This document shows positions 2,957-61,800 of a DNA stretch of 64,000 nt, one piece after another. The DNA comes from Acorus gramineus (taxonomy: Eukaryota; Streptophyta; Magnoliopsida; Acorales; Acoraceae). Position numbers and translations under genes: made by a program. The notes beneath the pieces were generated by a model, which saw only the letters and a list, made by a program, of their open reading frames with translations, searched no databases and was not told where the DNA came from. Each line of letters begins with the position of its first letter. Position 1 is the stretch's first letter. The stretch is taken from assembly GCA_030737835.1 (NCBI GenBank), contig JAUJYN010000018.1, positions 2,852,001 to 2,916,000 on the forward strand, written 5' to 3'.

Positions 2957-5900
2957 TGTCACGCCCCAGGGCGGCCGTCCCCGGGACGCGGCAAGTGCAT
3001 ATAAAATATCAGAATCTACACAGGAGGTCAATAATATATCATACACAAACAACTAGAGTGACACACATGCAACAAAGGGGCTGACATGATATATACACCA
3101 AATGCGGAAGCAAAAGACTGAATCTGTAAATAAACATTCTACAGACTCGATACTCAATCATCTGTCCTGTGAGAGCCAATATACATAAATACAACTGAAC
3201 ATATACAAACACGTGCCAAGCACGGAAATCAAATACAAACAGTCAAGAAGGGATGCTGATAACCTCTGGCACTCGCGGGACGTGGCGCTGCTCCGCTACT
3301 GAAGGAATCCCTCGGAAAGCTCCAACCGCTGCTCTGGCTCTAGCTCAGGCTCAGTGACCACTGGGGAAAAACATATGCGAGGGGTGAGCCACACGCTCAG
3401 TGAACAGCACAACCCATGCATCACAGACAATATTTACCATAATTCCATTATTTATCCAGCCTCTAAGACATAACAACATAATCCAGTGGTTCGTACCTCG
3501 CCGAACCACCACACCCTCACCCTCACCCATCAATGGGTGACATAGGCTATTGGGACTGATATTCATCCATTCACAAATCTAGCAGGTCGCTCATCGCCAA
3601 CCCACTACACCCTCACCCTCACCCTACCACGGGTGACATAGGATTTTGGGACTGACTAGGCTGTTGGTCACCCTTAGTCCACCGGTAGTCTCTCCTCCAC
3701 TCCGTAGGCCACTTGGTCTCCACCCACAACTTCAGCACAGTCCGTCACAAATATCGGGAGGCGCCTACTGATGTGGGTCCTCCGAAGGACGGCCTTTCTA
3801 ACGCTGGGGTAGTCTCTACCGGATCCAATGAGAGAGAACAGAACAGCCTATCCATACGCATATGATCCACTCTGATCCGCCGACAACACATCTCTACAAC
3901 TCAAATGTCATGAACTCTTCAGAGTTCCTCCAGGGTGCATAACCACGATGCGGGGAAATAAGTACAATAAAAACAAGGTTGAAATATCATCGGGGGAAAG
4001 AGACTCGGGAGGGCGGTGTGAGTTCCCGTTATAGGATACCCCGACAACCAAACAAGGAACACGGAGTACCCTAACCCGGGTCTCACCGCTGTCCTCGCAA
4101 GGCCCCTCCCCTATAATATTCACTAATATGCTAATAATCATACTAATCATACAACATTACTTATAATATTACTGGGACTAGAAACCTTGGGAGGGCAGCA
4201 TGAGGTCCCGATACAGGACATCCCGACAACCAAACAAGGAACACGGAGTACCCTAACACGGGTCTCAATGTTGACCTCGCAAGGCTCCTCCCTATAATAT
4301 TATCTAAGGCATGCGATTTAACATACACTAGCATTTAATTTAATAAATAAACTAGTAGGACGCATGCATAGGCCGAGGTTTCCTAGCATGAAAACAGGGG
4401 ACATGGTGCATGGCTCTCACACCTATCCTATGGGTGCAAGTCCCTAACATAAAAGCCTAGGGTAGCATGCATTCTGTATTTAAAATCATGCTCACATGCA
4501 ATACATATTACTACAGGTTAATATAATCCACGGTGCCCCAGGAGAGGTCGGTATACGCCCAAGTGCGTATAACGCCTCTCTACTGGGTTGGATTGTCCCA
4601 CTCACCAGTATCTGGGTCGTCGCGCGACCGTCCGTCCAGATCTGCAAGACAGACATTCAATATGGTGAGAACAATACATAAATACTCTAAAATACCCAAA
4701 CATACAAAACCCACAACTAAACACCTAACACTCGGGCAAACGTGCATACGACCCGCACGCACGCTAGCCCGAGCACCCCCGGCAACCACCCGCACGGCCG
4801 CCCGACCACCCGGGTGCACCGCCGAGCCTCAGCCAACGCACCCCGCGCACCGCCGGACCTCCCGGGTGCACCGCGCGCCCCCTGCACCCCAGCGCAGCCG
4901 CCCGTGCACACCCCGCATGCCTCGCGCTGGCCCGCGAGCACCCCGCACGCCCCGCGCGCAGCGCCTCGCCCCGCGCGCACCCCGTGCGCACCACCTCGCT
5001 CCGCGCGCACCCCGCGCGCACCACCTGCCTCTACCCGCGCGCACCACCGGCGCCTCAGCCCAGCGCCCGGTATCCGCGGCCCAGCACCTGACGCTCAGTG
5101 CCCAGCACCTGGGACCCTCACCCAGCGCCCACGCGCACGCACGTGCAACACGCGCCCAGCGCGCCTGGCAGCACGCGCCCAGCGCGCCTGCCAGCATGCC
5201 CACACTGCTGCCCACATTGCCTGCCTGCACGCGTCGCCGAGTGGCCCGAGCACCGTTCGCCTGCACGCCCGGCACTGCTCGCCTGATGCCCGAGCACCTC
5301 CTGCCCTGCTCACCTGCGTGCCCACCCTGCCAGCCCGGCCTGCCCGCGCGCACAGCCCACAGCCTGCCTACCTGCATGCCTCTCCCTGCACCCCCCCCCC
5401 GAGCGCACGCCCGCGCGCGCACCCGCGCGCACGCGTTCACATGTCCGGCAACCTAGTGCACTTGCTCCCAGCCTACCCGAGCTAGCCCTGCCAGCCTGCC
5501 CAGCGCTCACGCCCAGCCCTGCTGGCCCCCAGCGCCAGCCGAGCGCCCGCACGCCCAGCCCTTCTGGCCCCCAGCACCGCCCGAGCGCACGCACGCCCGC
5601 GCCAACCACTGCGCCTGCACCACCCAGCGCTGCTGCCCTGCCCGAGATAGCAGCCCGCCAGCCCGAGCTGCACGCCTGCCAGCCCGAGCTCCTCTACCAC
5701 CCACCTCTGACCACCACCACAGCCTCCGACCGCCTCCCACAGCCCTCCGACCGCCTCCCACAGCCCTCCGACGGCCACCCACCGCCGCCAACCTCCACCC
5801 AACCCCATTTCCACCCTCCTAGCATACATTGAAGCAAGAAAGAGAGGAAAAAGAGGCTTACCAAGGGGAGGAAAGGAAATCCGGTTGCTCTCCGCGCACT

Positions 5901-8382: not shown

Positions 8383-8956
8383 GGTGGAGGAAATCCAAGC
8401 ATCGATCTTCGGTTGTGATGGTGACAAAGCCCCGGGGCCGGATGGGTTTGGACCCTGTTTCTATTAAGAGTTCTGGTAGGTAGTGAAGGAAGATATAGTG
8501 CATATGTTTGAGAAATTTCAAGTAGGGCAACAGAATATTGGATGTTTAAATTCTTCATCCTTTGTTCCAATCCCAAAGAAAGAAGGGCCCAAACAGATTG
8601 GTGACTATAGACCTATATGTCTGACAAACGGGCGGTACATGATGATTGCAAAAGTCCTAACTAACTGTATGAAACGGATCAATCCATTCATTATTGAGCC
8701 TTTCCAGTCTGCTTTCATTCTGGGATGCAATCTTCAAGAGGAGTTCTCAATTACGCAAGAACAAATAGCAAGTTTGCATAGGGATAAGAGGTGTGGATTG
8801 ATCCTTAAGCTTGATTTTGCAAAAGCCTATTATCGGGTCGATTGGGGGTTCCTCTTGCAAGTACTTGAGCAACATGGTTTTAATGAAAGTTGGATCCGCA
8901 TGATTCACCAATGCATTAGTACTGCAAAAGCGTCAATTCCTGTTAATGGCACTTCA
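8383..8956 (+). pseudogene. LINE ORF2 remnant, N-terminal reverse transcriptase
   Basis: This continues the LINE of 206-1279. The reading runs from APFS before the LTR into VEEIQASIFGCDGD and KAPGPDGF, the conserved start of the plant LINE reverse transcriptase. Later landmarks are DYRPICL (about 8605), PFQSAFI (about 8700) and LKLDFAKAYYRVDW (about 8807), where the family normally has AYDRVDW. A TAA stop lies at about 8465. The piece ends at NGTS, where the LTR at 8957 is inserted, and resumes at 11619. Confidence 0.88.
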
Positions 8957-9447
8957 TGTTATGCCTGTGTCATTTGGAGCGCTCTGATTGAAAATTTGGC
9001 TACATAATTTTTCTCCTCGAAGTTATGTATTTCCAATTTGGTATTTGGATTTGATTTTGTTAAAATCCAAGATGAAGAGGTTTAAATATGAGTTTATTAT
9101 GAGATGCTCAGTTTCGAGTTAGCTTTCATACAAAAGTGGAATTAGATCAACTGGATTCATGTAGTAAAAGTTATGGGTATTTTTCCAAGTATACCCCGGG
9201 GATGAAAAAATTCTGGCAGCAGCCCTGTTCAATGTTTAGCTCTAATTTCGGAATAGCTAGAGGGATTATTTGATCTTGGCATAAACATGAAAGTTGTAGA
9301 TAATCTTCTTGGCTTTCCAACGGATTTTGAATTGTGCAATTCGGAGCTATATTGAGGAAGTTATGGCTGTTCTAGTGAAGCATGTACAGAATTTCTAGTT
9401 AGGGATGAATTGGTCATTTCTATCCCTCCTTTAGATATTTATGGCCC

Positions 9448-16323: not shown

Positions 16324-16658
16324 CTCTAGATCCAGAAAAGGTGTGGAAAGAAGAGAAAGAGAGCGAAGGGATTCACGGTTGCCGTTCGAAGCAAGAAGGA
16401 GGCCACATTCCGCCACGGATCTACAACATAGGAAGGACATACGGCAGAAGATCTAAAAGTTTTGATTGAGCTATCCATCGTCATCTATCAGATCCAATCT
16501 TCTTCTTTGATAAAACTCTGATCAGAGTTTTGAAGGTAAATTCTAATTCCGCCTTGTAGGGTTTGAATGGAGAAGATTTTATAAAAAAATTTGTTATCCG
16601 ATCTATACCTCGATCGACGGATCTTGGCAGGCGGGATTTATTTTCTCCCAACAGTATG

Positions 16659-17817
16659 TGCATCAAGGAAGAGGCGAGGGGTTGGAGGGTGGGACACAAG
16701 TGACTCACTCACAATATACGGCTGACACAACCATGTTTGTATATTCTGAGATTGAAGTTGTTCGGGGGCTTCGATTCATTTTAGCCTATTTCACACTCTT
16801 ATCGGGATTGGAGCTTAATTGGAGCAAGAGTACAGTTTGGACAGTGAACGTGGAGAGGTGCAGGGCATCAAAGATGGTTGGTTTCTTGGCATGTGATATA
16901 TTAGAGGCACCACAGAGGCACTTGGGACTCCTGTTGATAAAGTCATGTTTGCTCTATCGGGATTGGCAACCATTGACTAAGAGGATCGAGTGTAAGCTGG
17001 CTGGATGGAAAAACAAGGATCTCTTGACCGGTGGGAAGGTCATCCTCCTGCAGTCAATAATTTCTAACCTTCCTTTGTTTTACTTATCCACATTCAAAGT
17101 GCCAAAGGGTATATTGCGCAAGATCGATTCCATTATGAGGCATTTCTTATGGAATGGTTCAAAGAGTAGCTCCTCCAAACCATGCATGGTTAAATGGGAA
17201 AGGATTTGTGAAGTGAAGGAGAAGGGTGGACTTGGAATCCTTGATCTTGACATGATAAATAGGTCGTTGCTGTCAAAATGGTTGTGGAACTGGGTTCATA
17301 ACCCGTCACTTTGGTGGGTGCAACTCTTTAAAGAAAGGTACGGAGGTGGCTCTTCTTGTTACCCGGCAGTCTCATTGCACACTTCATTCCTATGCAAAGG
17401 ATGGTTTGAGCTTGGAGGAGAATTCATGCCGTCCCTAAAGTGGAAAGTTGGGGGGGGGGGTGATCAAATCCGCTTCTGGAGGGATACATGGAGGGAGAGG
17501 CTCCGTTCACTGTAAGTTGTCCATTGCTTATCAATATTGCCAACAACAAGGAGGAGACGGTGCAGCAAGTATGGGATGAGGTGGGAAGGGCATGCCACTG
17601 GAATCTTAACTTCAAGCAAATCACTTCAGAGGAACAAGTCACAGAAGCTGCAAGTCTGCAGGAAGCTCTAAGTACTCAAGTCCTTGGACATGCAGAGGAC
17701 CAAATATGTTGGCTAGGTGGTAAAATAGAGGTATATTCAGTAAAGTCTAGTTACCGGTGGTGGAAGAGAGAGTCGCTAGAGGTCCCGTCAATGGCGGCCA
17801 AGACACAAAAAATATGG
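16659..17817 (+). pseudogene. LINE ORF2 remnant, C-terminal reverse transcriptase and tail
   Basis: This is the last piece of the plus-strand LINE. An open stretch of 285 codons starts at 16658 and covers the reverse transcriptase thumb: LSGLELNWSKS, HLGLLLIKSCLL, LAGWKNKDLLTGGKVILLQS and KEKGGLGILDLDMINRSLLSKW. The catalytic box usually read F/YADD is degraded to YTADTT near 16720. After a frame change near 17500 the tail continues (VYSVKSSYRWWKRES, then KIWL), which corresponds to the start of the zinc-binding reverse transcriptase region. Homology stops near 17817, where LTR sequence begins without a poly(A) tail, so the LINE 3' end is missing. Confidence 0.85.
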
Positions 17818-19949: not shown

Positions 19950-22717
19950 TGTTATATATGTGTCACTTTTTAGCCTTCTGGTAACCATTGGAGCATTTTG
20001 GCAGTTTTTCAACTTTTTCGTTTTTCGATCGTAACCGCTAAAATTTTGGACTTTTAGCTATCATCCTGAGTTTGAGGACTCCGATTGAAAATCTAACTGC
20101 ATATTATGTGTCCTGGTGCCATTTCAAGCCACTCATGAAAATTTCATCGAATTCCAGTAACGTCTCAGAATTTCGCAGTTTCGAATCGTATCTGGGTTTT
20201 GACCGAGCGGAAAGTCATTGGGAGACTTGACTTGGTCGAAGTTGACCTTTGACTTGGTCAATGGGTTTTGGTTTTTAGTGTGGTTGGGTTGACTAGGGTC
20301 AAAGTGCACTTAGACCTAACTAAACCTAGCTTAACCTAATCTTTTTTTTTTCACTAAGTGTAAGTGGTGAGTGTGTGAGGTGTGTGTGTGGCCCCCCTTT
20401 AAGTCCACGCCTAGGTATAGTGCCCCCCCACTATTCATCATCTTCTCCACCTCTCAATCTCTCTCTCCCTCTCTTTAAAACCCCCCTTTTGATCTAGCTA
20501 GAGGTGTTGAATCAAGAAACCCTAGAAGGAGAAAAGATAGGTGAGGACCCGATCTATCTTCCTATGGTCTCGGATTCGAGTTCCCTCATGTGTGACCCCC
20601 TCTTATGGTCCCTTTTCTCCTCAGATTTCAGCCACTTTTAGGGCTTGGTGGTGGTGGCCTTGGAGGTGGTGTTTCGGTGCGCGAAGAGCACCCGATCTTC
20701 CCTTCCTCTCCCTTGGGTGAGCTTTCTTTCCTTCCATTTCTTGCTTAGATGCATGTTTAGGAGGTGTTTTTGGATGTGCAAAGTGAGCATGAGTGTTTGG
20801 GGTGGGGGAGGGCTGAGGGAGGTGGTAGAGTCGGCTTGGGCAGTGCGGGCTCATCGGCGCGTGCGCGCGAGCCTGCGCGCGCAGGCGGGCAGGCTGGCAG
20901 GCGCAGGGCAGGCGCGCTGTCGGGAGAGCTAGCAAGGGACGCGCGTGTGCGCGCGGGTGCTGCGCAAGGGGCGTAGTACGCGCAGGGCGAGCAGGCGTGC
21001 GCGTGGGGTGCGCGCGGGGTGCTGCGCTGGGGCGCAGTGCGTGCGGGTGTGCGCGCGAGGTGCTGCGCTGGGGGGCAGTGCGCGCGGGTGCACCCGGGGC
21101 TGCACGCGCGGTGCGCGCAGGCACGCGCGAGCGTGCGCGCGACGTGTGGCGGGTCTGGGCGTGCGGGCAGAGGCGCGGCAGCGCGTCTGGGAGCGCGGGC
21201 TGGGGCGCGGCAGTGCGCCCGGGGCTCGGGCGTGCGTGCGTGCGTGCACAACCGTGCGTGCGTGCGTGCGCACCCGTGCATGCGCGTGCGGGTGGCGGTG
21301 CGCATGGCTGCCCGGGGGTGCGGGAGTGAGTCGGGCACTCGGGCTCGCGTGCGTACGGGCCGTATGTACGCTTGTCCGAGTGTTGTGTATTTTTAGCGTA
21401 TTTTGTATGTATTGTGTATTTTACTCACCGTGTTGAATACCCTGTCTTGCAGATCTTGACGGACGGTCACGCGATGACCCGGGTATTGGTGAGTGGGACA
21501 ATCCAACCCAGTTGGGAGGCGTATATGCTCTTAGGCGTGTATCGTCCTCCCCTGGGGCACCATGGTTTAATATTAACTTGTATAATATGTAATCTATGCA
21601 GGCATGATTGTTATGTAGTGTGCATGCCACCCTAGATCTTGTATGTTAGGGACTTACACCCTTAAGATATGTGTAAGAACCATGCATCCTGATACCATAT
21701 TTTCATCCTAGGAAGCCTTGACCTACGCATGCGTCCCATTTAGTTTAATTTATTTAAATCAAATGTGAGTTATTGATAATTAGCATGCTTAGTGAATATT
21801 ATAACCTTGAAGTTATAATATAGGCTTCCCCGCATCTTAGTTATGTGCCCTGGAGGAATTCTGAAGAATTCATGACATTAGTAGAGTTGCAATCGGCGTC
21901 GACGGATCCAAGTGGATCGTATCCGTGTGGGTAGGCTGTTTCTCTTCCCTTCATTGGATCCGTATAGAGACTGCCCCAACGTTAGACAGGCCGTCCTGAC
22001 AGAGGGCTTCCATCAGTAGGTACCTCCTGATTTGGTTTCGGACTGTGCTGAATTGTGAGAGTAGACCAGGCGGGCTACGGAGTGGAGGAGAGACTATCGG
22101 TGGACCAAGGGTGATTAACAGCCTAGTCAGTCCCAATAGACCGTGTCACCTATTGGAGGGTGAGGGTTAGGGTGTGGTGGGTCAGCGATGTATCGACCCA
22201 CTGGATTGTGTAGTTTCTGCCACTTAGAGGCTTTGAATAATTTCTAGGTTAATATGAATTGTGATGCATGGGTTGTGCTATTCACTGAGCGTGTGGCTCA
22301 CCCCTCGCATATTTTTCTCCAGTTATCACTGAGTCGGATCTGAAGGAGGAGCTCCCCGAGGGACTTCATCAGTAGCGGAGCAGCGCCACGTCCCGCGTGT
22401 GTTAGAGGCTATCAGCATCCCTTTTTTATTGTATGTATTATATTTCCGTGCTTGGGCACCCGTTTGTATTATATTTGATGTCATTGTATATATTGGCTCC
22501 CACAGGACAGTTGATTATGTATCGAGTCTGAATGTGCCTTTGAATTACAGACTTAGTCTTTTAGCTTCCGCTATTTGTGTATATATCATGTCAGCCTTGC
22601 TTTTGTCTGTGTTGTCATTTTTGGTGTTATTTAGAGTATGTTATTGATCCTGTATAGACTGCTGATATCATATATACACTTGCCGCGTCCCAGGGACGGC
22701 CACCCTGGGGCGTGACA
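19950..22717 (+). repeat. 5' LTR of the chromovirus
   Basis: This 2768-bp LTR starts TGTTATATATGTGTCAC and ends GGGGCGTGACA. It contains the GC-rich core (20830-21370), the conserved block (21420-21540), a gagggtt/ggtgtgg tract near 22160, and the cactgagcgtgtggctcacc motif near 22290. The paired 3' LTR is shorter, mainly because it lacks the GC-rich core. Confidence 0.9.
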
Positions 22718-22838: not shown

Positions 22839-24094
22839 ATGCCTCCTCGCAGAGGAAGGCGCGGACGTGGTCCCTCTCGACCTTTGGAGGTTCCCGGACC
22901 TACCGGAGGTGAGGATGCTACTGGAGTGTCCTCGGCTGTGAGGCCAGGACTGGCGCAGGAGCCTCCTGCATGGGAGTGTGCTTTCGCTCGGATAGCGGAT
23001 TTGGTGGAGACTCAGACCAGGTACTGGAGGCCCAGACTAGGGTGTTGGCTGAGCAGGCTAGAGAGATTCAGGAGCTGAGGACGGCCCGTGATGCAGTTTC
23101 ACAGGTCCCCTTGGTGGCAGATTTGCCGGTGGTGCCCGACGTACCCCCAGTCCCTGTGGTGATTCCGGCGGTGAGAGTTCAGGATCACCAAGAGAGGGAG
23201 GTGGAGCTGGAGGCTGCGGCGCGAGTGCGTAAGAGTGGCCTCAATGCCTTTCTGAAGCTCCACCCTCTCGAGTTCCATGGCCAGACGGTGGATCCCCTTG
23301 CCCCAGAGCGTTGGTTGATGGAGGTGGACACAATCTTCTCGACCATGGATTGCACCGACCGCCAACGAGTCTCTCTGGCCACCTTCATGCTGAAGGGTAG
23401 CGCCGCCGACTGGTGGGCTACTAGATCGGTGGACATTCCAGAGGGAGTAGAGCAGCTTCTATGGGCGGGATTCCGGAGGTATTTCTTGGAGGAGTACTTC
23501 CCGTTCTCGACGCGCCAGATCTTGATGCAGGAGTTCGAGCAGCTAACGCAGGGCTCCATGTCTGTCGCTGACTACTCCACACGCTTGACGAGGCTTTCTA
23601 GATTCACCCCAGCCTTGGTGATGGATGAGGAGACCCGGTGCCGTCGTTTCGAGCTTGGTCTTAGTAGCGCCATTCGGGTGCATGTCACCTCCCAGGCTTT
23701 CACGAGGTACTCGGACTTGGTGTCTAGGCCGAAGATAGTCGAGCGAGACCTTGGGATCTCCGTGAGGGTTTCGACCCCTTCTGCAGACCAGAGACCTCCC
23801 AGGAGCCAGGACCAGGGACAGCGCAAGAAGAAGAGGCCCCGCTTTGATCAGTTAGCGGCCGCCTCTCCTCCAGTCGATGTGGTGCCAGCGCGAGGTCCAG
23901 CACCCATTGCGGCAGTGCCAGTCCAGGCCAGGCGACCGGAGACGCGACGCTGTTACCACTGTCAGCGCATCGGGCATATCTTGTATAATTGCCCTGATGC
24001 TGGCCAACCCCGCGTGCTGCCTTCGCAGCAGCAGCAGCAGTTGCAGCAGCCTCAGCGCCAGCAGCAGCAGCAGCCTCAGCGTCAGCAGCAGTAG
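22839..24094 (+). pseudogene. Chromovirus gag region
   Basis: The region begins MPPRRGRRGRG and contains the retrotransposon gag domain (LKLHPLEFHG, FMLKGSAADWWATR, YFPFSTRQILMQEFEQL, GSMSVADYSTRLTRLSRF). A basic segment (RKKKRPRF) and a CCHC zinc knuckle (RRCYHCQRIGHILYNCP, near 23943-23994) follow. Gag forms the particle that packages element RNA. A CAG-rich tract encoding glutamines closes the segment. The gag is broken and counted as a fossil. Confidence 0.88.
24026..24094 (+). repeat. CAG/CAA-rich glutamine-coding tract
   Basis: Consecutive CAG codons with a few CTC, CGC and TTG codons follow the zinc knuckle. The equivalent tract in the right-hand element (63327-63433) is longer, so the repeat number differs between copies of the family. 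Confidence 0.85.
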
Positions 24095-24666
24095 CCACAG
24101 GGTGGCCGTGTTGACCAGAGGAGGCAGCCTGTGCAGCCTGCGAGGCGTGCCCCTGCTCCTCAGCCGCAGTTTGTTCAGGGCAGAGTTGCAGCACTTTCGG
24201 CCGAGGAGGAGCAGGCTTCGGGTATCATGGTCCGAGGTATTGTTTTGATTTCCCAGCTCCCTATATATATGTGTGTTATTTGATTGCGGAGCATGAGTTT
24301 CCAGTAGAGTTAGTAGTGTTCATTAAGGGTGATGTCTTCTTCTAGTCTTCCTTCTCTGGATTAAGGGGCCTTGCGAGGTCAGCGTTGAGACCCGGGCTAG
24401 GGTACTCCGTGTTCCTTGTTTGGTTGTCGGGATATCCTATATCGGGACCTCATGGTGCCCTCCCAAAGTTTTTTTTTCCCAGTCAAGGAATACCTTGGAA
24501 GCATCAAATTGATGGTGGATTAAGTGCGAGTTTTGGTTGGAGCGTATGTCCTTTTTGGGCCATGTGATTTCCGGCGAGGGCATATCTGTGGACCCGGACA
24601 AGACGCTCGCCGTGTCGAATTGGCGTCGACCGTCGAACCCCCACAGAGATTCGGAGCTTCCTGGGC

Positions 24667-26751
24667 TTGGCGGGTTATTACAGGAGGTTTGTCGAGGGTT
24701 TCTCGAAGATAGCTGTTCCTCTTACCTGCCTCACTCGGAAGGATGTCCGGTTCAAGTGGTCCCCGGCTTGCGAGGAGAGCTTCCTGGAGTTGAAGCGAAG
24801 GCTCACCTCAGCGCCAGTTCTTACCCTTCCGTCTGGGAGGGGTGGGTTCGCAGTTTACTCCGATGCATCGCGGTTGGGTGTGGGTTGCGTCCTGATGCAG
24901 CACGGTAAGGTTGTGGCTTACGCGTCGCGTCAGTTGAAGCCCCATGAGCAGAATTACCCCACCCATGACCTAGAGTTGGCAGCGATCATCCTTGCGCTGA
25001 AGATGTGGAGGCATTACCTCTATGGCGAGGAGTTCGAGCTCTTTACCGATCATAAGAGCTTGACATATTTGCAGTCCCAGCCGGAGCTCAACATGCGTCA
25101 GAGACGTTGGGTTGAGTTCCTGAAGGACTATGATTGTGACATCGCTTACCATCCTGGTAAGGCGAATGTCCTGGCAGATGCTCTCAGCAGACAGCCCTTG
25201 GGCATGGCCGCCCACATGGCTGTACGTCGTTGGAGGCTTCTGGAGGAGGCCGTTTGCTGGATCAGCGTTCGAGAGACACCTGCGGGTGGCTTTTTGGGCA
25301 GGCTAGTGGTGCAGCCCATTCTTCTCGATGAGATCCGCACGCCTCAGGGGCAAGATCCTCATTTTCTAGTCCTCTCTGAAGGCGTCGCCCGGGGCGAGCG
25401 TCCGGACTACCAGATTCGCGAGGACGGGATCCTGCGGTTCAGAGGCCGAGTATGCATTCCTGACGACGCAGAGCTGAAGCAGAAGATCTTGGACGAGGCC
25501 CATCGTTCGAGGTACACAGTGCATCCTGGTGGCACGAAGATGTACAGGGGCCTTCGTCGTGGCTACTGGTGGCGCGGGATGAAGACGGATATTGCCCGTT
25601 TCGTTGCCCGATGCTTAGTATGCCAGCAGGTGAAGTCGGAGCATCAGCGTCCTACGGGGAAGCTGCAGTCCATTGAGATCCCTCAGTGGAAGTGGGAGCA
25701 GATCACCATGGACTTCGTTTTGGGTTTGCCGAGGTCACGTTCGGGTCGCGATGCCATCTGGGTGATCGTCGACCGACTGACGAAGTCTGCTCATTTCCTC
25801 CCCATCCGACTCACCGATTCTCTGGACACCCTGGTGCAGTTATTTGTCTCTGAGATTGTTCGTCTCCATGGCACTCCCGTCAGCATCATTTTCGATCGAG
25901 ATGCGCGATTTACTTCGAGGTTCTGGCGTAGCCTCCAGCACGCCCTTGGTACGAACCTCCACTTCAGTACATCGTTTCATCTGCAGACGGACGGCCAGTC
26001 GGAGAGGACGATTCAGACCTTGGAGGACATGCTGCGAGCCTGCGTTCTCGATTTTGGGGGCAGTTGGGAGAGGCACCTTCCGTTGGTGGAGTTTGCCTAC
26101 AACAACAGCTACCACTCAAGGATCCGGATGGCTCCATATGAGGCACTCTATGGCCGCAGCTGCAGGTCCCCCTTGTGTTGGGATGAGGTCGGAGAGCGCC
26201 AGTTGGAGGGACCAGAGATCATTCACCAGACCTCAGAGATGGTGAAGACGATTCGCGAGCGTATCCGAGTCGCTCAGAGCCGTCAGAAGAGCTACGCCGA
26301 CCGTCGTCGCCATGAGCTCGCCTTCGAGGTTGGTGACCATGTCTTCTTGAAGGTGTCCCCGATGAAGGGCATCTTCCGTTTCGGTGTGCGGGGCAAGCTG
26401 AGTCCGCGTTTCATTGGGCCGTTCCTCATCCTCGAGCGAGTTGGGGAGGTGGCCTATCGCATAGCTCTGCCCCCACAGTTGGCTCAGGCCCATGACGTCT
26501 TCCATGTCTCGCAGCTGAGGCGTTATGTCCACGATCCTGCTCACGTCATCCCGTTCAAGCCGCTCGTCTTCGAGCCAGACTTGTCATTCGTCGAGCAGCC
26601 GATTGAGATCCTGGACCGCCGTGAGAAGAGGCTCCGCACCAAGACCGTCCAGTTGGTCAAGGTGCGATGGCAGCACCGTTCCAGTGCCGAGGCCACTTGG
26701 GAGCTCGAGGACGCCATGCGTGACGCGTATCCGCATCTTTTCCCTTCCTAG
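24667..26751 (+). pseudogene. Chromovirus pol remnant: RNase H, integrase, chromodomain
   Basis: This 694-codon open segment holds the C-terminal half of a Ty3/gypsy pol. RNase H comes first (VYSDASRLGVG, TDHKSLTYL, NVLADALSR, about residues 58-178). The integrase zinc domain is AHRSRYTVHPGG to CLVCQQVK (about 278-322), and the integrase core keeps its acidic residues in TMDFVLGLP, FDRDARF and GQSERTIQT (about 347-446). The GPF and HDVFHVSQLRRY regions follow, and the end reads as a chromodomain (EILDRREKRLRTK, VRWQ, ATWELEDAM). The chromodomain directs integration to marked heterochromatin in related elements. It is part of a broken element. Confidence 0.92.
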
Positions 26752-41994: not shown

Positions 41995-43448
41995 ATGGCA
42001 AACCGAGATGGCTTGATCCTTGGACGCGTCATGGGGGATGTTTTAGATCCCTTCAACAAAACCATAACAATGAGGGTGACCTACAAAGACAGAGTTGTCA
42101 CAAACGGGTGTGATCTCAGGCCTTCAATGGTGGAAAATCAACCACAGGCTGTTATTGGTGGAGATGATATGAGGGTCTTTTACACCCTGGTGAGACATGA
42201 ATTTCACTATGAACATAGTGATCTTTATTACATGTGATTTATTCTTTAAAGTGTGTTGATGCTTGTTTTGGGCAGGTGTTGGTTGATCCAGATGCTCCAA
42301 GTCCAAGTAATCCACATTTGAGGGAGTATCTGCACTGGTGAGTTATTTAAACTAAGGAAACTAATTAAAGCATGCACAAAAACACAGAGATCTGAACTAT
42401 ATATAGTTGAACAAACATTGGCATTACTGATATGCCATTTCGGTAAGATGAGTTGAAAACAGAGAAGTTAGATGTAAATAGTGTCCCTTTAAAAAGAACC
42501 AGTTAGATAAATATTGCTCTGAGATGTCTGTACAAGAACATGAAAGGAGTGATGAAATTGTACAATTTCAATCAGATGCCTTGTCAGCTTGGCCGTTGGA
42601 CTCAACAGTATCACAGAATCCAAGTTTGTCAGTTAAATGAAGTGGGATTTGTCAGACAAAATGCAAGGCCACATTCCTCGTATCTGTTATTAAACTGTTC
42701 CATGCATTATAATTCACGGCAGCATCTTTGGTAAATTTTTGTCACATGTCATCTCATATACAGAGAGGTCATATAACAATAAATGTGTTATTAAGGTAAT
42801 TATTATTTATAATTTTATAGTTTTTGAAAAAAAATATTAATCTTGAAAACAATCAGCCAATGAAATATTTCTTTTTCCCCCAAATGGATGTTACTGTGTG
42901 CTAGTAAAGGAGCTTTCTTAAGAGTGTGACTATTCATGGTTTCATATTGTATTTGTTCCATTCACTATACAAACACATAACAGAAAGAGAAGAATATATT
43001 TCATTGTACGAAGTACTGACAGTGGAAACACATTGTGATTCAGGCTGGTTACTGACATACCAGGGACAACCAGTGCCAGTTTTGGTGAGTTTCTATTATT
43101 GAATGTTGATGTTTTATTATGTTATGACTTATGAGTGTGACCACCAATAGTAAGAAACAGAGGCCAACAGAAAATGCAATGCACATTGTAACTCGTTTGA
43201 ATTTCCGGTTGATCAATATAGGCCAACAAGTGATGTGCTATGAGAGCCCGAGACCGACGGCAGGGATCCACAGACTCATCTTTGTATTGTTCAGGCAACT
43301 GGGCAGACAAACTGTTTATGCCCCAAGCTTCAGACACAATTTTTGCACAAGGGATTTCTCAAGTATGTACCATCTCGGATCTCCAGTGGCTTCCGTATAC
43401 TATAATTGCCAGAGGGAAGCCGGTTCTGGTGGCCGACGCTTCCGTTGA
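41995..43448 (+). CDS. FT-like PEBP protein (FLOWERING LOCUS T family), four exons
   Basis: Exons are 41995-42189, 42276-42337, 43044-43084 and 43222-43448 (195, 62, 41 and 227 bp). Exons 2 and 3 have exactly the FT lengths, all splice sites are GT-AG, and the product is 174 residues against 175 in Arabidopsis FT. FT-type proteins move from leaf to shoot apex and bind 14-3-3 and the bZIP FD to control flowering. Seen here are the PEBP motifs DPDAPSP and GIHR, the pocket residues D69, H85 and H116, and the FT-diagnostic Tyr83 (FT Y85; TFL1 has His). The 14-3-3 contacts R60, P92, F99 and R128 are also present. Odd are F136, H138 and H150, where FT has W138, Q140 and N152. Introns are 86, 706 and 137 bp. 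FT-clade membership is firm; promoter or repressor of flowering is open. Confidence 0.93.
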
Positions 43449-53362: not shown

Positions 53363-56142
53363 TGTTATATATGTGTCACTTTTATTCTTCTGGTCACCGT
53401 TGGAGCATTCTAGCAGTTTTTCAGCTTTTTCTTTTTTCGATCGGAACCGCTAAAATTTTAGACTTTTAGCTATCATCCTGAGCTTGAGGACTCCGATTGA
53501 AAATCTAACTGCATATTATGTGTCCTGGTGCCATTTCAAGCCACTCACGAAAATTTCATCAAATTCCGGTAACGTTCAGAATTTTGCAGTTCTGAATCGT
53601 ATCCGGGTTTTGACCAAGCGAAAAGTCATTGGGAGACTTGACTTGGTCAAATTTGACCTTGAATTGGTCAAATGATTTTGGTTTTTAGTGTGGTTGGGTT
53701 GACTAGGGTCAAATCCCACCTAAACCTAGCTTAACCTAATTTAATGCTAAGTGTAAGTGAGTGTGTGTGTGTGTGGTGAGTGTGTGTGCTTTAAGTTGGG
53801 CGTCCCCTTCTAATCCCCTCCCCTATTCATCTTCTCCCCCATTTCAAGCTTTCAAAAGCTCTCACCTCCCTCTCTTTAAATCCCCCATTTGATCTAGCTA
53901 GAGGTGTTGGATTGAAAAACCCTAGAAGGAGAAAAGCTTGGTAAGGACCCGATCTACCTTTCCATGGTCTTGGAATTGTTTTCCCTTTTGTTTTTCCTCC
54001 TCTCATGGCACCTTTTCTCCTCAGCTTTCAGCCTTGCTAGGGCTGAGTGGAGATCTTGGTGGTGGTGGTCTTGGAGGTGGCGAATCGGTGCGTGAAGAGC
54101 ACCCGATTTCCTCCCCTTCCCTTCCTCTCCTTGGGTGAGCTTTCTTTCCTTCCTTTTCTTGAGTAGATGCTTGTTTAGGATGTATTTTTGGGTATGCATG
54201 GCTGTTGGGGGGCTGTTGGGGGTTTGGGGCGGCTCGGGCGCGCGTGCGGGATCATCCCTGCGCGTGCGCGCGGGCCTGTGCGCGCAGGCAAGCGCAGGCA
54301 AAGCAGGGCGCAGTCAGGCGAGCTGGTGTCGGGCGCGCTGGGCGCGTGCTATCGGGCGCGCTGGGGGCGTGCGTGAGGTGCTGCGCAGGGGGCGCAGTGC
54401 GCGCGGAGCGCTGCGCAGGGGGAGCAGTGCGCGCGGAGCGCTGCGCAGGGGCGCAGTGCGTGCGATGCGCGCGGGGAGGCGAGCGGGTGTGCGCGCGGGG
54501 TACTGCGCTGGGGCGCAGTGTGTGCGGGTGTGCGCGCGAGGTGCTGCGCTGGGGCGCCGTGCGCGCGGGTGCACCCGGGGCTGGACGCGCGGTGCGCGCG
54601 GGCATGCACGAGCGTGCGGCGTGTCTGGTCGTGCGGGCAGAGGCGCGCAGCGCGCCTGGGTGCTCAGGCTGGGGCGCGGCAGTGCGCCCGGGGCGTGGGT
54701 GTGCGTGCGTGCGTGCGCACCCGTGCGTATGCGTGCGGGTGGCCGTGCGCATGGCTGCCCGGCGGTGCGGGAGTGTGTCGGAGCACTCGGACTCGCGTGC
54801 GTACGGGCCTGTATGTATGCTTGTCCGAGTGTTGGGTATTTTTATCGTATTTTTGGCGTATTTGTGTATTATACTCACCATTTTGATTCCCATGTCTTGC
54901 AGATCTTGACGGACGGTCACGCGACGACCCGGGTATTGGTGAGTGGGACAATCCAACCCAGTAGGGAGGCGTTGGATGCACGTAGGCGTGCATTGCCCTC
55001 CCCTGGAGCACCATAGTTGCATATTAGCTAATATTAAATGTAAACTGTGCTATGCATGATCATTATGATTGTATCCATGCCCCCCTTAGACTTTGTATGA
55101 TAGGGATATGCACCCTTACATCATGTTAGAGGCCTATGCATGCCTAAGCACCTTGTCCCGACCTGTGCATGTTCCCGCCTAGTTTAATTTGGTTAAATCA
55201 AATGTGAGCATGCCTTAGAGAATATTATAACCTCTTGTTATAATATGTGTCTCCCCGCATCTTAGTTATGCGCCCTGGAGGAATTCGTGTGAATTCACGA
55301 CATTATTTAGCGTTACCATCGGTGTCGACGGATCCATAAGGATCATATCCGCGTGAGTAGACTGTCTTCTTCTTATTGGTTGGATCCGATGTAGGTACTC
55401 CCCGGCGATGGCTGACCTGATAGAGGGCTTCCGTCCGGTACCTCTGATGTGTTTGGACAGTGCTGGTAGTTGGAGTGGGCTAGGTCGAGGCTACGAGGGT
55501 GGGAAAGGGCTACCGGATGGACCAGGGATGGGAAAGCGGTCTAGTTGCCCCAAGAGACCTATGTCACCCATCGGAGGGGGTGAGGGTGAGGGGAGGGAAA
55601 GTGGGTTGGCGATGAGACAACCCACCAGATTGTGTAGTTGCTGCCACTTAGGGGCTAATGATTATTTAAGGTTAATATGAATTGTGATGCATGGGTTGTG
55701 CTATTCACTGAGCGTGTGGCTCACCCCTCGCATATATTTTTTATCCAGTGATATCTGAGTCGGATCTGAAGGAAGAGCTCCCCGAGCCACGTCAGCAGTA
55801 GTGGAGCAGCGCCACGTTCTGCGAGTGAGAGGCCATCAGCATCCGTTTATTGTATGTATTGTATTCTGTGCTTGGGCACACGTTTGTATTATATTTGGAT
55901 GTCGTTGTATATATTGGCTCTCACAGGACAGTTGATTATGTATCGGGTCTGTAATATGTCTTTTGAATTACAGACTCAGTCTTTTAGCTTCCGCTATTTG
56001 TGTATATATTATGTCAGCCTCATTGTTGTCTGTGTTGTCATTTTTTATGTTGTTTAGAGTATGTTATTGACCTCCTGTATAGACTGCTGATATCATGTAT
56101 ACACTTGCTGCGTCCCGGGGACGGCCGCCCTGGGGCGTGACA
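53363..56142 (+). mobile_element. Family A solo LTR in the CACTA element
   Basis: A 2780-bp LTR starts TGTTATATATGTGTCAC and ends GGGGCGTGACA. It is flanked by perfect ACTCG duplications (53358-53362 and 56143-56147). It has the complete family A layout: GC-rich core 54190-54830, conserved block 54870-54980, a ggggtgagggtgagggg tract near 55577, and the cactgagcgtgtggctcacc motif near 55707. There is no internal coding region. It is younger than the CACTA element that holds it. Confidence 0.92.
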
Positions 56143-58853: not shown

Positions 58854-61800
58854 TGTTATATATGTGTCACTTTTTAGCCTTCTGGTAACCATTGGAGCAT
58901 TCTGGCAGTTTTTGAGTTTTTTTCATTTTTCGATCGGAACCGCTAAAATTTTAGACTGTTAGCTATCGTCCTATGTTTGAGGACTCCGATTGAAAATCTA
59001 ACTGCATATTATGTGTCCTGGTGCCATTCTAAGCCACTCACGAAAATTTCATCGAATTTCGGTACGTTTCAGAATTTCACAGTTCCGGGGCGTATCCGGG
59101 TTTTGACCGAGCGAGAAGTCATTGGGAGAGTTGACTCGGTCAAAGTGGGCCCATGACTTGGTCAACCCTTTTTGTTTTTTTGTGTGGTTGGGTTGACCCA
59201 AGTCAAATCCCACTTAAAACCCACTTAAACCTAATTAATCAAGCCTTAACCCTAGTTAACCCTAATTAATGTGGTGTTGACTTATTTAAGTGGGTAGCAA
59301 AAGTTGCCCTCCACTATTCATCATCTTCTCAAATGGTTTTTCTCTCTCCCCCTCTCTCTTTTTCTTGATTTTGAGCTACCTAGAGGGCTTGAAACTCAAA
59401 ACTCAAAGCATAGAAAGGTTAGATCCCATCCCGATCTATCCACCGGTGGTTTCGGATTCGAATTCCGGTGTGTTTAGCCCCTCCTCACACCCTCTTTTCT
59501 CCTCAGATTTCAGCCCCTTTGAGGGTGGGAAGAGACCTTGGTGGTGGAAGGCTTTGGGGAGGCGTTTCGGTGCCCGAAGAGCTCCCGGTTCCCTTCTCTT
59601 CCTCTCCTTTCCTTGGGTAAGGGTTCTTTCTTTCTTTTCCATGTTTAGATGCATGTTAGGGGGTGTTTTTGGGTGTGTGGTGGCGGTTGGTGGCTGTGGG
59701 TGGTGGTTAGGGGCGGTCGGAGGCCATTGGTGGTCGGATAGAGGAGGTAGGGTGGCTCGGGCAGGGTGGTTGTCTGTCCCGAGCAGGATGGCAGCACAGG
59801 CAGCAGCACTGGCAGCACAGGCAGCAGCACTAGCAGCACAGGCGCAGCAGGCGGAGCAGTTGGCAGGCCGCGCGCGCGCGTGCGCGCGGACGTGCGCGCG
59901 GGCGTGCGCTCGGGTTGAGCTGGAGGGCGTGTTGGGCGAGGGTGCTGGGCGCGTGTTCTGGGTGCGGGTGCTGGGCGCTGGGCGCTGGTGCTAAGCTCTG
60001 GGCACTGGGGCGCTAGGCGCTGGGCACCGTGCGGGAGCGTGCGCGCGGAGCGCTGTGCAGAGGTGCAAGCGTGCTGTGCGGGGGCGGTGAGGCGAGGCCG
60101 GTGGTGCGCGCGGGGTGCGCGCAGGTGAAGCGATGGGGCGCTGGGCGAGCGGTGGTGCGTGCGGGGTGCGCGCGGGGCGAGGCGTGAGGGCGCAGGGTGT
60201 GCGGCTGTGCGCGCGGGTTGCTGCGCTGGGGCGCAGTGAGCGCGCGGTGCACCCGGGGAGCTCGGCGGCGTGTCAAGGCGTGCGAGCAGGGGCTCGGCAG
60301 GGCGCCTGGGTGCGCGAGTTGAGGCGCGGCGGTGCATCCGGGGGCAGTGGCCGTGCGGGTGGTTGCCGAGGGTTCGGGAGTGAGTCGGAGTGCTCGGGCT
60401 CGCGTGCGTACAGGCCGTATGTACGCTTGTCCGAGTGTTGGGGTATTTTAGAGTATTTTTAGTTTATTTTGGGGGTATTTGTGGATTTTACTCACCTAGT
60501 TGGTTACCCTGTCTTGCAGATCTTGACGGACGGTCGCACGACGACCCGGTTTCTGGTGAGTGGGACGACCCAATCCAGTTGGGAGGCGCTATATGCACTT
60601 GGGCGTATACCGTCCTCCCCTGGGGCGCATAGTTAATATTAACCGATTAATATGTAATCTGTGCGAGCATGATTAGTGTGTAGAATGCATGCCACCCTAA
60701 ACTTTGTATGTTAGGGACTTGCACCCTTAGGATATGTGTAAGAGCCGTGCATCTTGTCACCTTGTTATCATGCTAGGAAAGCCTCGACCTATGCATGCGA
60801 CCTATTAGTTTGATTTATTTAATTAAATGCAAGCCTATGATATTGTTAGCATGCCTTAGGGAATATAAGGGGGCCTTGCGAGGTAAACATTGAGACCCGG
60901 GCTAGGGTAATCCGTGTTCCTTGTTTGGTTGGCGGGATGTCCTATATCGGGACCTCAGGTTGCCCTCCCAAAGTTTCTTTTCCCTATTATTTATTTTATA
61001 TGATTCCCCGCATCGTGGTTATGCGCGCTGGAGGAATTCTGAAGAATTCAAGACATTAGAGTTGTTGAGATGTGTTGTCGGCGGATCCGAGTGGATCATA
61101 TGCGCATGGATAGGCTGTTCTGTTCCCTTCGTTGGATCCGGGTAGAGACTGCCCCGGCGTTAGAAAGGCTGTCCCGTGCAGGGGCTCCCATCAGTAGGCA
61201 CCTCCTGATTTGGGACGGACTGTGCTGAATGTGGGGGTGGCCAAACGGCCTACGGAGTGGGGAGAGACTATCGGTGGACCAAGGGTGACCAACAGCCTAG
61301 TCAGTCCCAATAGCCTATGTCACCTGTTGAGGGGTGAGGGTGAGGGTGTGGTGGGCCGGCGATGTGGCGACCCACTGGATTGTGTAAGGATGATTATCAG
61401 CCTATTAAGTCCCAACATCCTTTGTCACCTATTGAGGGGTGAGGGTGAGGGTGAGGGTGTGGTGGTTCGGCGATGTAACGAACCCCCGGATTTGTGTTGT
61501 TTATCCCACTTTGAGGCTTTTGCTGATTAATTGTGGTTAATATGAATTGTGATGCATGGGTTGTGCTATTCACTGAGCGTGTGGCTCACCCCTCGCATAA
61601 TTATTTTTCTTCAGTGATTACCGAGGCGGACTTGAAGGAGGAGCTTCCCGAGCGACTGCACCAGTAGCGGAGTAGCGCCACAACCCTCGAGTTTTTGAAG
61701 CCATCAGCATCCTTCTTTTATTGTATGTATATATTTCTGTGCTTGGGCACCCAGTATGGATTGTATTTGGTTGTATATGTATATATATATTGGCTCTCAC

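Follow-up and report, generated by a model that had tools for sequence, protein, structure and literature searches.

The residues W138, Q140 and N152 of FLOWERING LOCUS T (FT) are usually named together with a fourth, E109, as given in PMC9556947. In the monocot group MonFT1A (clade II, or FT-like II), Gln140 is replaced by Glu or His, and positions 138 and 150-152 are variable, as described in PMC7186885 and PMC9847362; the latter also describes seven sites of divergence between clades I and II, and reports clade II as found only in monocots. His140 is reported for ZCN8 and for the banana proteins MaFT3, MaFT4 and MaFT12, which are described as grouping with ZCN8, rescuing ft-10 and speeding the flowering of Col-0 (PMC5517511). 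The banana MonFT1 genes are cited in PMC7186885 as being without effect in Arabidopsis, contrary to the abstract of the banana paper itself (PMC5517511). ZCN8, SbFT8 and SbFT10 of FT-like II are reported to induce flowering in Arabidopsis (PMC8982381), and in Table 7 of PMC9847362 six of the eight clade II rows are inducers (SbFT10 being printed as 'Introduction') and two repress. Soybean GmFT5a/b are described as flowering promoters with His140 (PMC8107440). According to PMC7816854, HvFT3 promotes and HvFT4 represses flowering, with Y134 and W138 missing in both; PMC9847362, in its text, adds a delay of flowering by HvFT3 and TaFT3 under short winter days. BdFTL9 is reported to form a weaker complex, and to promote flowering in short days and delay it in long days (PMC6379408).

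Gene structure

The window analysed here is a stretch of 64,000 nucleotides (C56:2852001-2916000) from a genome of 398.6 Mb in 137 contigs, a plant by gene content. It holds an FT-like gene, called C56 below after its contig, whose four exons (195, 62, 41 and 227 bp) join into a single open frame of 174 aa. The introns (86, 706 and 137 bp) are GT..AG in all three cases. The exons, each identified by splicing and open frame, are:

41995..42189, plus strand, exon 1 of the FT-like gene, with the ATG at 41995
42276..42337, plus strand, exon 2 (62 bp), with DPDAPSP
43044..43084, plus strand, exon 3 (41 bp)
43222..43448, plus strand, exon 4 (227 bp including the stop), with GIHR, segment B and the triad MYH

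With phmmer, the C56 protein matched rice Hd3a at 4.5e-80 and FLOWERING LOCUS T at 2.1e-79, versus 1.2e-55 for TFL1; rice Hd3a and FT were its best solved relatives, far above TFL1 and CEN. The Pfam family PF01161 was matched at 40.4 bits (cut-off 24). The fold is hardly in doubt because the E-values to Hd3a and FT are near 1e-79. The marks of the FT subfamily were present (Tyr85, DPDxPSP, GIHR, and four exons with exons 2 and 3 of 62 and 41 bp). An earlier note, made from the letters of the window, had described an FT-like gene with core features, and the exon sizes, Y83, motifs, and R60, P92, F99 and R128 that it named were all confirmed. A pseudogene or a chance frame was rejected, given the intact frame, the splice sites and purifying selection.

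Residues of segments B and C

Residues are numbered as in FT, the window protein being FT minus 2; the full FT row used in the comparison was provisional, and PDB chains show identical FT letters at these positions. C56 retained the FT letters at positions 62, 66, 85, 94, 101, 109, 130 and 134, and had S, F, H, M and H at 137, 138, 140, 150 and 152 (in window numbering R60, T64, Y83, P92, F99, E107, R128 and Y132, and F136, H138 and H150). As residues, the 14-3-3 contacts R62, T66, P94, F101 and R130 were all present. The alignment bore out the F, H and H that the earlier note had read for W138, Q140 and N152, and beyond these showed I150 changed to M within the triad MYH and G137 changed to S in the loop. 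Among the four cited positions, E109 was unchanged and three (W138, Q140, N152) were altered. Compared with canonical florigen-type FT (monocot clade I and Arabidopsis FT), W138, Q140 and the xYN triad were all absent, and C56 was not filed with that type because of its F138, H140 and MYH.

Paralogs

Three FT-like genes were found in the genome: C56, C9 (C9:13439073-13440460) and C3 (C3:27360372-27361663, minus strand, L034). The C9 protein is 84% identical to C56 and reads VYAPDYRHN...MYH, with H140, H152 and MYH as in C56 and Y at 138; positions 137-138 are S-F in C56 and D-Y in C9. The F/H/H of C56 is not a stray change, since H140, H152 and the MYH triad recur in C9, and because both genes carry the two histidines these probably predate the C56/C9 duplication. 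C3 reads VYEPGWRQN...LYN and retains W138, Q140 and N152, with Leu at the 14-3-3 contact F101 and Glu at A135. With Leu in place of F101, this textbook-looking W/Q/N paralog may be a compromised copy and has no clear claim to be the better florigen. At 1e-5, neither of the two 10-kb flanks of C9 matched the window at the DNA level, and none of their 197 frames of at least 40 aa matched it at 1e-3.

Two protein searches of the genome gave 36 and 37 exon matches (one a weak stray, E 0.93), amounting to at least 13 PEBP loci, and the PF01161 search added a fourteenth, on C5 (at least 14 in total); that family search missed the C56 gene itself, and the counts are lower bounds. Six loci were fully modelled, two more were spliced and stood outside the trees (L038 and the plus copy of L040), and the remainder were classed by eye from fragments. 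TFL1-like genes were many, versus three FT-like genes found, and occurred in clusters (L040 and L041, C2:11074555-11115779; L037 and L038, C7:15386235-15400141; L035 and L036, C9:5165844-5186123). A complete spliced frame was not found for L036, L041 or the minus copy in L040. The near-identical divergent PEBP copies L042 (C60:727798-728639) and L043 (C64:1762458-1763299; 2768 of 2815 alignment columns) are probably a broken gene, because the normal 62-bp exon 2 was not found, in a segment that is probably duplicated or doubly assembled.

Comparison with described promoters and repressors

ZCN8 presumably has His152 and a C-terminal stretch of 12 residues as in C56; it would differ from the pair at 138, presumably M in ZCN8 versus F in C56 and Y in C9. 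ZCN8 and MaFT3/4/12 share His140 with C56, and the passage of PMC5517511 that gives it reports no Y85 change for them. GmFT5a/b likewise combine His140 with promotion but, unlike C56, are described as retaining W138 with Ile at 134, and belong to a eudicot lineage (PMC8107440).

The earlier note had taken the altered residues as a lost promoter surface. This was not upheld, given that His140 is found also in promoters and that the promoter HvFT3 is without W138; the more basic claim, that segments B and C are altered in an intact, constrained FT-like gene, was supported. Occurrence of the same residues in proven promoters, which that note had named as counting against it, was found for His140 (one of the three positions) but not for 138, with F not given for HvFT3, or for 152, where the His of ZCN8 is presumed. 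No proven promoter and no tested protein was found to carry all three of F/H/H, and a literature search for Q140H, N152H, W138F and W138Y substitutions in FT recovered only the yam paper PMC9865765.

With three of the four cited positions altered, C56 could be an anti-florigen, a live although less probable reading in which the protein would bind 14-3-3 and FD, fail to activate through its segment B/C surface, compete with the C3 florigen and delay flowering. FT with W138E becomes repressive (PMC11020210). CsFTL3, like C56 an FT-like protein with changed 138 and 140, is reported to delay flowering, and its silencing to speed it (PMC12845063); it has Y134S, W138L and Q140E, whereas C56 has Y134, F138 and H140. 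Repression is also reported for clade II AceFT4 (AcFT4) and SbFT12 (PMC9847362), for HvFT4 (PMC7816854) and, weakly, for tulip TgFT3 (PMC7693649). Sugarcane ScFT1, grouped with ZCN8 in one tree, is described as delaying flowering (PMC4033272), lily LhFT6, with Pro at 140, as binding FD weakly and not rescuing ft-10 (PMC7693649), and BdFTL9 as dominant-negative in long days (PMC7816854, PMC6379408). The yam proteins DRNTG_11087 (W138M, Q140H) and DRNTG_11086 (W138M) are changed at 138 as is C56, the former also having His140, and are suspected repressors according to their authors (PMC9865765). However, C56 keeps Y134, unlike CsFTL3 or BvFT1, and keeps E109; its W138 is replaced by another aromatic residue (F in C56, Y in C9), and His140 is compatible with promotion in the banana and soybean proteins. 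For C56, an anti-florigen is possible but not indicated.

Phylogeny

Six fully modelled PEBP loci of the genome entered one tree and five the other. With tool-given rows only, FT and TFL1 were split at 100/100, and C56 and C9 grouped at 100/99. ZCN8, with a provisional sequence, grouped with this pair at 86/92 in one tree and 66/81 in another. With the segment B/C columns removed, ZCN8 plus the pair was absent from the best tree and was not rejected (p-AU 0.223); the pair with C3 (p-AU 0.199) and the pair with Hd3a and RFT1 (p-AU 0.207) were not rejected either. The trees gave C56 a clear place on the FT side; the grouping with ZCN8 was not firm.

C56 fits the residue mark of MonFT1A or clade II (H140, F138 and MYH). 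Three of the clade I/II divergence sites (53, 138 and 149) were changed in both members of the pair but not in C3, and four of the seven (13, 16, 39 and 81) were unchanged in C56 and C9 and do not fit. It is the residues, and not the trees, that would place C56 and C9 in clade II.

Sequence evolution

Between C56 and C9, NG86 gave dN 0.092 and dS 0.677, with an omega of 0.136 (bootstrap 0.082-0.225, 300 replicates) that applies to this pair only, the synonymous distance to C3 being beyond estimation; YN00 gave dN 0.093 and dS 0.556. Over the 30 codons of the segment B/C part, dN was 0.091 and dS 1.16. A dN/dS near 1, which the earlier note had set against its own reading, was not observed. Two noncoding blocks were conserved with C9:

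41804..41881, plus strand, upstream block, 65 of 79 columns identical, with the TATA-like TTATATATA near its end
42972..43043, plus strand, end of intron 2, 58 of 73 columns

The upstream block scored 84, where the best of 100 shuffles reached 29, and the end of intron 2 scored 67, where the best of 100 reached 35. For introns 1 and 3, as for the 500 bp downstream and the next 500 bp upstream, no score rose above the shuffle maximum. Both C56 and C9 look like constrained, regulated genes. Decay of C56 as a duplicate of little function is very improbable: retrotransposon frames do lie within the window, but the frame and splice sites are intact, omega is low and the upstream block is conserved.

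Genomic context

At least two TIR matches were found in the genome, and few TIR matches fit a monocot. Beside PHYA, the phytochromes were one PHYC-like gene, two that are PHYB-like and a fifth gene on a long branch; a PHYA tree, at 53/48, gave no clear placement. The fifth, seen as a very divergent exon (L061, C3:6529429-6529959), matched PHYB at 636 bits versus PHYA at 548, and was called PHYE-like, its place in the tree being unsettled. Presence of PHYE speaks against most monocots; the PHYE-like gene thus makes a non-monocot host conceivable, although the TIR count points the other way, and this weighs on a clade II placement. An improbable combined reading has a non-monocot host, in which ZCN8-type FT with His140 and His152 would either predate the monocots or have arisen twice, and the C56/C9 pair as the main florigen, given that C3, the sole W/Q/N paralog found, carries Leu at F101. 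Exact strings of miR528, miR403 and miR444 were absent from the genome at 0 mismatches, a weak test. No plastid contig was seen, and matK and rbcL gave 12 and 5 fragment matches.

Within the window, Ty3/gypsy frames occupied 22913-26751 (in Pfam, a gag matching Ty3 capsid is followed by RNase H, an integrase zinc-binding match and, weakly, a chromodomain), a reverse transcriptase match (RVT_1, Pfam) lay at 8480-9007, and 16547-17515 was LINE-like by eye, with no Pfam match at 0.001. In four GC-rich stretches (4527-5832, 20621-21424, 54096-55049 and 59290-60463), probably repeat DNA, long frames overlap on one strand or on both, and their peptides are similar. A bacterial-type promoter scan of the window was discarded as meaningless for a plant gene.

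The pair might also have left flowering control for a storage-organ, dormancy or stress role, with the FT fold and 14-3-3 binding kept. Monocot clade II/III genes are reported with varied expression, and onion AcFT genes in bulbing (PMC9847362, PMC6274202), but no pointer to any of these roles was found within the window, and such a shift is unlikely.

Discussion

The intact, duplicated C56 gene, of FT ancestry, with its 14-3-3 contact residues kept and under purifying selection, is read with moderate confidence as a ZCN8-like FT gene that would work via 14-3-3 and FD, probably as a florigen, whether at full or at reduced strength. For its expression, movement, binding and sign of effect on flowering we infer the following course. 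The protein would be produced in leaves and travel to the shoot apex, where it would bind 14-3-3 via R62, T66, P94, F101 and R130, and hence FD, in a florigen activation complex. Changes in the loop would adjust the strength of this complex and not abolish it, and C56 would most likely promote flowering, perhaps weakly or conditionally, as is reported for ZCN8, MaFT3/4/12 and BdFTL9, the last in short days only. In our judgement, retention of Y134 and E109, together with an aromatic residue at 138, favours a promoter, be its strength full or reduced. Against a ZCN8-type promoter, PMC7186885 reads the MonFT1A residues as more TFL1-like and predicts repression.

Positions 138, 140 and 152 vary in promoters and repressors alike. 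C56 is a new member of a known, variable FT lineage, and its sequence alone does not indicate a block of flowering. As a caution, an FT repressor should not be called from W138, Q140 and N152 alone. The genome holds a natural test, with C56 and C9 differing at 137-138 and sharing His140 and His152, and C3 combining a nearly FT-like loop with a changed 14-3-3 contact.
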